Source: Isoetes taiwanensis
Lineage: Eukaryota > Streptophyta > Lycopodiopsida > Isoetales > Isoetaceae
Reading direction: 5' to 3'
Length of the DNA stretch: 64,000 bases
NCBI GenBank assembly: GCA_021234155.1
Contig: JAJEKV010000099.1
Location: 3,691,453 to 3,755,452, forward strand
Shown here: positions 30,027 to 31,023 of the stretch, piece after piece
Layout: each line of letters opens with the position of its first letter
Numbering within the stretch: position 1 is the stretch's first letter
Notes under the pieces: generated by a model
Seen by the model: the letters and a program-made list of their open reading frames with translations, nothing else
Told to the model about the DNA's origin: nothing
Databases searched by the model: none
Made by a program: the position numbers and the translations under genes

Positions 30027-31023
30027 TCAAGGGTATTCCTTGCGGATGCGACGCGCCAAGTGCAAGTCCTTGGGCATCAGGGTCACCCTCTTCGCGTGGA
30101 TCGCGCAGAGGTTCCCTTCTTCGAACAACTGGGTGAGCTCAGCCTCAGCGGCTACTTGCAGCACCCGAGTTGTGAGCGACGTCACCCTATAGTCGGTGAC
30201 GAAGTCTTGCATGACCTCCCTCATGAGCAGCTCAAAGCCTTCCCTAATCGGGAGATTAGTGCCTTTGGAAGTGCCTAATCTCCCAAAAACTTCGGGCATG
30301 CCTTGTGTTCGGCCCATGGTGGACCTTCCTTGGCTTCTCGGGTCGTGGCGGCGGCGGCGGCTTGGGCTGGTTCCTTACTGGTCGGCCTCCCTCCCCGTAT
30401 CGTTGAACGTTTTGGCGGCGGTACCCGGTCGTTATACCTCGTCCAGCGGCGGAGGTATTCTTCATATGCCTTGGCTGGCGTCTGTAGTCGGTCCTCCCTC
30501 AAAAGGCGACGCGGTCGCTTCGCCCATATACGCTTCTTAACCACCTTAGGTGGCTTGGGCCCACTTTGGATAAGGTGGTCTTGCGTCGAGGTTTGAAGAT
30601 TCCCAGGCGACTTGGCGTCCTCCTCCCCTTCTTCTTCCTCTTCATCCTCATGAAGCACCTCCTCGTCCATTCATAACCTTCTCCTTGCCCTTCTTCTTGG
30701 AGTGCCAGAAGGGCCGCCTCTGAGTTTGGTGTTTGCTGCTGCTTTGCTGCTCCACACCTCCCTCAACTTGCTCTTCCACCTCGTGTCCGAGGAAGGCCCA
30801 AAGTGGCGGGACTCTCCGATTCTCACGGGTGCCCGCCCGGCGAAGAACCGTGCTTCTTTGGCGGAATGTCTCGTCGTTTGTTCTTTGGAGGGAAGCTCCT
30901 CTTCCCCTTCTTGGGTCGAAGGTGCTCTCGGGATCTTCTTCACATGGCGACCTGGCGCTAAATCGCAATCGAGAGTGTAGGTCGCTCACCTGGCTTCTTG
31001 GCATGCAGCTTGGTTCGAGCCAT
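30027..31023 (-). CDS. Histone H3-like protein with long N-terminal tail (possibly CENH3-like)
   Basis: On the minus strand the last 260 bases encode a full H3 histone fold. The alpha-N helix is WEIRHFQR (30262-30290), then TNLPIREGFELLMREVMQDF, then VLQVAAEAELTQLFEEGNLC, then AIHAKRVTLMPKDLHLARRI, stop at 30027. The most upstream ATG at 31023 opens MARTKLHAKKPG, matching the invariant MARTK start of H3 and CENH3. Between them lies a tail of about 240 codons rich in Pro, Arg, Lys and Glu, broken by frameshifts near 30270 and in the tail. Long tails and EIRHFQ..TNL are typical of plant CENH3, but loop 1 has the canonical H3 length (QDF to AAEA is 23 residues in both), so centromeric identity is open. 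It sits between primer site and pol of an LTR retrotransposon, where gag would be. The fold call is firm; the gene model is not. Confidence 0.85.

Follow-up and report, generated by a model that had tools for sequence, protein, structure and literature searches.

Here we describe long terminal repeat (LTR) retrotransposons of Isoetes taiwanensis that encode a histone H3-type protein of their own. One of them lies on the minus strand at 21938-33241 of a 64,000-nucleotide stretch of contig JAJEKV010000099.1 (positions 3,691,453 to 3,755,452 of the forward strand, assembly GCA_021234155.1). This whole stretch is called the window, and the H3-like gene occupies 30027-31023 of it. The elements are present in many copies and encode, as the first open reading frame (ORF) after the primer binding site (PBS), a protein that ends in an H3 fold. 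Strong purifying selection has kept this fold while the elements multiplied. Two types are distinguished. The type A protein, to which the window copy belongs, consists of an H3 tail and a diverged H3 fold, separated by 230-280 residues that are mostly charged. The type B protein consists of a new N-terminal domain (N-domain) of about 220 amino acids (aa), a linker and a near-canonical H3 fold. Hundreds of H3-carrying copies under selection suggest a genomic parasite that makes its own chromatin part. Judging from these sequences, the protein probably enters nucleosomes together with host H4, displays its element-specific part there, and serves either the guidance of integration or resistance to silencing.

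The H3-like gene of the window element

The window element is bounded by direct LTRs that are 93.8% identical by BLAST. The 5' LTR (31603..33241, minus strand), delimited by self-BLAST and alignment, begins with TGTGACG and ends with CCACA; the outer end of the 3' LTR (21938..23583, minus strand) is uncertain by a few bases. Adjoining the right-hand LTR is the sequence TGGTATCAGAGC (31590..31601, minus strand), which we take to be a PBS of the initiator-methionine tRNA (tRNA-iMet) type. Next comes ORF1, the broken H3-like gene. Read in three-frame translation from 31023 to 30027 on the minus strand, the protein starts with MARTKLHAKKPG, continues through a charged, proline-rich middle and closes with EIRHFQR...TNLPIRE...LCAIHAKRVTLMPKDLHLARRIRKEYP. 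The gene is broken by at least three frame changes: one frame encodes the tail and alpha-N, another the middle, and a third what remains of the fold. The open part with most of the fold, a 96-residue piece at 30030..30317 (minus strand), matches the Pfam Histone model at 1.1e-20, and in PDB it is matched best by H3 chains (up to 81.6 bits). Chance resemblance is therefore excluded. Compared with the PDB H3 chains the fold lacks one residue ahead of alpha1, and loop 1 aligns without a gap. A complete H3 fold with canonical loop 1 is thus present by Pfam, by PDB and by the identity comparison given below, as the first-pass annotation of this DNA had claimed for the fold.

The remaining coding traces of the window element, all on the minus strand, are those of a degraded pol gene and span 25228-27001. 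They comprise a protease trace (26763..26978; phmmer with the protease part of the type B locus L017, independent E-value 4.9e-5), a reverse transcriptase remnant in several frames (25928..26686; tblastn with ORF3 of L017 and L011, E 5e-11 to 4e-12), and an RNase H/integrase remnant (25228..25970; tblastn with ORF3 of L017 and L024, E 3e-30 and 1.9e-24, respectively). A chromodomain follows at 24481..24624 (minus strand; Pfam Chromo E=7.2e-10). By eye it is of type II, with cage aromatics 1 and 3 absent. As had been proposed, the H3-type gene belongs to a Ty3/Gypsy element, and the same element encodes a chromodomain. Searches of the window with the proteins of relatives (phmmer and tblastn) found no trace of gag, of ORF2 or of the type B N-domain.

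H3-carrying elements are numerous

The genome searched comprises 1110 sequences with a total of 1,658,258,908 bases. Of 8705 first-look candidates for the Pfam Histone model, the best 150 were scored. Fifteen of them score 164-165 bits, and the eight of these that were read are canonical H3. The other 135 are non-canonical H3 folds of type B (144.5-154.7 bits), and 130 have no stop inside the match. A search with the window's own fold, in which the best 150 of 7424 candidates were scored, returned the window and 149 other places, all type A and 76-92% identical to it; 144 of the 149 are free of stops. With the L017 N-domain as query, the weakest of the best 150 among 2938 candidates reaches 2.1e-89. 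The 135 + 149 = 284 places with an H3-type fold are a lower bound, and since the scored lists favour good matches the share of intact copies in them is no estimate for the family. From these lists 38 of the 135 type B copies were fetched (20 mostly chosen for long frames and 18 mostly with shorter frames), together with 12 of the 149 type A copies, mostly chosen for long frames. No relative of the element was found among the viral contigs and other genome contigs searched. The view that the gene is shared cargo of the element is borne out by the many other copies that carry it.

The type A copy L050 is 92.9% identical to the window over 2184 nt, from inside the LTR through the whole gene, and has a single open frame of 357 codons across the gene; its middle part reads unlike that of other copies. 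An H3-type start, also claimed earlier, is found in 9 of the 12 sister copies fetched, as an exact MARTKQTARK in five and with one change in four. The other three (L051, L054 and L055) have no H3-like start in the frame of the fold. Compared with ARTKQTARKS, the residue after K9 is F, P or Y rather than S, and K4 and K9 are kept in context. A conserved block, KAYQEYLRRWTRYNDWYCRQNVERY, precedes the fold, and the Pfam Histone model matches L050, L052 and L053 at 5.7e-29 to 1.2e-28. Among the four loci able to show a PBS, L050 has an exact one, and those of L052 and L053 each carry a single mismatch.

These copies bear on the idea that an ordinary element acquired the H3-like gene later, as a separate insertion. 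The one point in its favour is that the window copy sits in a GC-rich island within AT-rich sequence. The gene has the same place relative to the PBS in many copies, however, and a single 2184-nt match joins the window to L050, running from within the LTR across the gene. A later insertion is already contradicted by this, and its probability is negligible.

Type B elements encode the H3 protein ahead of gag-pol

The H3 fold was found in all 38 type B loci fetched. In 18 of the first 20 it lies in one stop-free frame of 367-494 residues, and in 17 of the first 20 a single frame covers everything from a start methionine to the end of the fold, N-domain included. In the other 18 loci the N-domain was matched by tblastn in 16, the exceptions being L035 and L043. 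The PBS is exact in 14/20 and 8/18 loci, and has one mismatch in one further locus; some of the stretches may start past the PBS. An LTR start, TGTGACG(T/G)TCC, lies upstream in 18 of the first 20, and in 16 of these 20 the LTR region is related to the window LTR (67-75% over 287-672 nt). The canonical H3 start is absent from type B.

The type B element read most fully is L017, in which the H3 ORF1 is followed by ORF2 and then by a complete Ty3-type gag-pol. Its ORF3 contains Ty3_capsid (1.8e-16), Retrotrans_gag (1.3e-15), RVP_2, RVT_1 (1.2e-38), RNase H and H2C2. The stretch after ORF3 (L029) contains the integrase core and a chromodomain. The order of gag, protease, reverse transcriptase, RNase H and integrase in L017 ORF3 and the integrase core of L029 is that of Ty3/Gypsy elements. 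The chromodomains score E 1.2e-8 in L029 and 4e-8 in L030, and by eye the chromodomains of these elements are without cage aromatics 1 and 3, like plant type II chromodomains. The LTR pair of L017 matches at 1568/1624 sites with GTGGC on both flanks, and that of L024 is 95.3% identical with a target duplication of 5-6 bp. The H3 gene therefore belongs to the transposed unit.

The first-pass annotation had placed the H3-like gene in the gag position, and this does not hold. The gag frame of L017 starts approximately 2.5 kb after the H3 ORF, in a separate ORF, and L017 ORF1 has no gag match. The candidate in which gag stands in place of H3 was rejected on the same ground, gag being a separate, later gene. 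The separate gag also matters for the suggestion that ORF1 might condense the reverse transcript in particles or in the pre-integration complex rather than act in host nucleosomes. The H3 ORF is the first ORF on the genomic RNA, as such a role would allow, and some giant viruses package their genomes with histones, according to parts of two reports (PMC11500106, PMC12297534). Against packaging stand the Ty3-type capsid/gag that L017 has in its own open frame, and the lack of any H4-, H2A- or H2B-like partner by Pfam in ORF2 or in the 1205 scanned residues of L017 ORF3. We regard a packaging role as distinctly unlikely.

ORF2 is a conserved ORF of approximately 470 residues between the H3 ORF and gag. 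It is whole or partial in 19 of the first 20 type B loci, for example at L015:4135-5520(+), L017:4564-5892(-) and L023:4483-5889(-). One element without it is L011 (4126-6774, plus strand), in which gag-pol directly follows the H3 ORF. No significant Pfam or PDB match was found for the N-domain or ORF2, the weak ones being to importin (0.35), Sos7 (0.12) and PepSY_TM (0.23). The structure model of ORF2 is poor, with a predicted local distance difference test score (pLDDT) of 39. Comparison by hhalign found no shared ancestry among the N-domain, ORF2 and gag. Between type B lineages (L017, L011, L019, L020, L024) the gag proteins are 95-98% identical and the ORF1 N-domains 32-36%. The proportion of synonymous differences (pS) between lineages is 0.37-0.59 for gag and 0.71-0.87 for the N-domain, and gag reaches 0.74 in one pair within a lineage. 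This contrast may reflect an ORF1/ORF2 cassette that is exchanged between elements, or fast change of the ORFs that would face chromatin. It is only suggestive, because slower change of gag explains much of it.

The fold is under strong purifying selection

Ratios of nonsynonymous to synonymous divergence (dN/dS) were estimated by the Nei-Gojobori method and pooled. The type B set comprised 37 of the 38 copies, L048 having been dropped as it has no unbroken fold, and the type A set comprised 9 of the 12, the three copies without an H3-like start having been dropped. In two type B lineages the pooled dN/dS of the fold is 0.041 (55 pairs) and 0.027 (10 pairs), and that of the N-domain is 0.113 and 0.166. 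Across type B the median for the fold is 0.040 (280 of 666 pairs with pS 0.05-0.72), and no pair exceeds 0.5. In type A (36 pairs) the values are 0.031 for the fold, 0.105 for the first 12 codons and 0.22 for the middle. Selection acts on the type A tail as well as on the fold. The comparison across copies that had been proposed with the first-pass annotation thus gives 0.03-0.04 for the fold in both types. Of the 97 positions, 57 are the same in all 37 type B folds, including K56, R83, C110, H113, R116, D123 and R129, which we take to be nucleosome-type residues. Between the window fold and the type B folds, most differences fall at the third codon position (25/15/42 by position against L009), and the GC content at third positions (GC3) of the window fold is 0.80. 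The window fold has therefore been coding for most of its history.

Transposable elements are known to capture host transcripts (PMC7264820, in part), and an H3 transcript captured by chance (transduplication) could be a functionless passenger. This reading is already contradicted for the copies read, and we consider it extremely improbable. The low dN/dS of the fold comes with a pooled pS of 0.26-0.56 in both types. The gene occurs in several divergent lineages, and nearly all of the matches counted above are free of stops, although in lists biased to good matches.

Relation to H3 and CENH3

The element folds are compared here with host H3 and with reference sequences, namely CENH3/CENP-A and two H3s; no host CENH3 was found. 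Each type B fold shares 76-86 of its 97 positions with host H3. The folds of L017, L023 and L024 are 83-89% identical to H3 and 55-68% to CENH3/CENP-A; for the window fold the corresponding identities are 57-58% and 46-49%. In the tree, type B is placed with H3 and away from the plant CENH3s, and the two plant CENH3s form a starred clade of their own, apart from types A and B. Type A is a clade with 100/100 support that includes the window next to L050 and has a long stem; many deeper forks are weak. Because of this long branch the placement of the window lineage among the H3s is only approximate. A tree in which types A and B are held together is 0.29 log units better than the free search (approximately unbiased test, p-AU 0.525), so a single H3 capture for both types is neither shown nor rejected.

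A resemblance of the window protein to plant CENH3 had been reported, and a CENH3-derived protein could target the element to centromeres. The EIRHFQQCTNLL motif and the long tail of type A are the features that recall CENH3. Loop 1 is of H3 length, however, identity is higher to H3 than to the reference CENH3s, and the plant CENH3s stand in their separate clade. The resemblance was not upheld, and a centromeric derivation is very improbable.

Possible roles in nucleosomes

Nucleosome entry would proceed as follows. The element H3 fold would pair with host H4, and host chaperones would place it in nucleosomes. The element's own N-terminal part would then be displayed on chromatin. There it may guide the integration complex, by marking a landing place or by tethering it, or the H3 may resist or divert silencing marks. 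The roles of H3 residues in the H3-H3' bundle, at the H4 interface and in DNA contacts are well established. Type B keeps the residues of all three, so assembly with host H4 would be expected. An influence on nucleosomes, which the first-pass annotation put forward as speculation, would seem more plausible now than it did then.

Several points weigh against this reading. Nucleosome entry is not a given, since the identity of the window fold to H3 is only about 57% and type B has lost the canonical H3 start and has fixed changes. All 37 type B folds differ from host H3 at positions 86 (A or T), 87 (F or H), 105 (S or G) and 107 (A). For ORF1, AlphaFold gives a weak model, with a mean pLDDT of 57 and fold blocks of at most 55, and this model has no significant PDB match. 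The window copy itself is broken and retains only a remnant of pol; the gag-pol region of type A was read in this copy only and is known from that remnant. The copy samples were drawn from lists favouring good matches, and most were chosen for long frames. Finally, if polishing of the assembly made copies more alike, the dN/dS values could come out too low, though pS is high.

The same protein might instead serve to prevent silencing or act as a decoy. Element H3 would replace host H3 on the chromatin of the element, or soak up H3 chaperones or the H3K9/K4 enzymes. The element would thereby escape repression, and the protein would have no part in integration. Type B has no canonical N-terminus and yet keeps the fold, and type A keeps ARTKQTARK with both lysines, five of the nine copies having the first ten H3 residues exactly. 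Both features would suit this role, as would the changes at 86/87/89, positions that presumably lie beside the H3.1/H3.3 chaperone patch. A plain decoy would have no need of the large type B domain, the dN/dS of which is 0.11-0.17. An anti-silencing role of this kind is possible, if on the whole doubtful.

The nucleosome reading can be extended to the chromodomain. The ligand of plant type II chromodomains is given as unknown in parts of two papers (PMC6317226, PMC3350952), and the element's own H3 is therefore a candidate ligand, if a speculative one. The element might then both write and read its own chromatin mark. Its type II chromodomain would recognise the element H3, or its modified tail, in nucleosomes, and new copies would land at chromatin prepared by earlier ones. 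We regard this extension as unlikely.

Relation to known systems

The elements share with plant chromoviruses the LTRs, a PBS of the tRNA-iMet type, a Ty3-type capsid, protease, reverse transcriptase, RNase H, integrase and chromodomain. They differ in the extra sense ORFs ahead of gag, the first of which encodes a histone H3 fusion. Extra conserved ORFs in many copies are also described in parts of the literature on other plant LTR elements (Grande, RIRE2 and Retand; OTA; Retrosat2 ORF0). According to sections of a review, such additional ORFs lie most often between pol and the 3' LTR (PMC7264820), unlike here. In orchids, LTR elements have acquired and kept an m6A demethylase (PMC9289625, in part), likewise a host-type domain. 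The same report, in the portions available, gives 15 extra domains in LTR elements from a screen of 121 angiosperm genomes. The nine named in its results are PMD, G-patch, AIR1, DUF1409, YgdH, L26, B3, ArgoL2 and 2-ODD, with no histone among them. The word histone occurs twice in that report, one mention being on demethylation, and is absent from the additional-ORF review (PMC7264820). In Neumann et al. 2019 it occurs once, on chromodomains (PMC6317226), and it is absent from the main text of two Isoetes genome papers.

Selfish genomes that encode their own core histones are found in giant viruses (Melbournevirus, Medusavirus). As far as the portions of the literature consulted go, these are DNA viruses with several histones or doublets, and the present case is a retroelement that encodes one H3 with unique parts fused to it. 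The proteins share the H3 fold with histone H3 and CENH3 variants, and in type A the start of the H3 tail is retained. They differ in the 230-280 aa inserted between tail and fold in type A, in the new N-terminal domain of type B, and in being encoded by an element. Limited searches of the open-licence literature found no described retroelement with a core histone. In our judgement an LTR element with an extra ORF is a known frame, and the histone cargo is a new kind as far as searched.

Core histones are host proteins that are essential and evolve very slowly. A mobile element that encodes an H3 of its own, with nucleosome-type residues maintained by selection, would directly parasitise the chromatin machinery. 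If it does enter nucleosomes, the host genome would contain a chromatin state specified by a parasite. The element H3 also provides a testable partner for the type II chromodomains of plant retroelements, and the elements offer a natural set of H3 variants with fused domains.

Insertion site, LTR divergence and other features of the window

The window element had been described as bounded by LTRs and a target duplication. The LTR pair stands, but the duplication at the ends of the element is degenerate. Better evidence of insertion is an unfilled site, a paralogous repeat without the element at 8664..10149 (plus strand), which matches 21445-21927 and 33239-34502 on the two flanks. These three stretches, with 15526-16013 and 20990-21406, belong to a repeat family with several members in the window, and the element was inserted into one of them.

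Of the 113 differences between the window LTRs, 104 lie within 5 nt of a CpG, compared with 49% of the columns, and 32 are indels. The same holds for L017 (L017/L029 pair), with 56/67 differences near CpG against 43% of columns, and for L024 (L024/L031 pair), with 61/81 against 46%. Because the differences cluster near CpG, LTR identity was not used to date the window copy. The assembly is based on Nanopore v9.4.1 reads with Illumina polishing (PMC8566536, in part). Read error and methylation-driven mutation are not separable here, and frameshifts in the Isoetes assembly should be read with care.

Two structures lie in the 3 kb that separate the H3 gene from the protease trace and are otherwise unexplained. 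At 29218-29475 there is a 129-bp tandem duplication with a GGTTCGATTC box. At 29740-29814 a 26-nt inverted repeat forms a hairpin, the motif of which recurs at 29560-29611. Outside the element, a piece of a cupin gene that is germin-like by eye lies at 38131-38661 on the plus strand (Pfam Cupin_1 2.2e-15).
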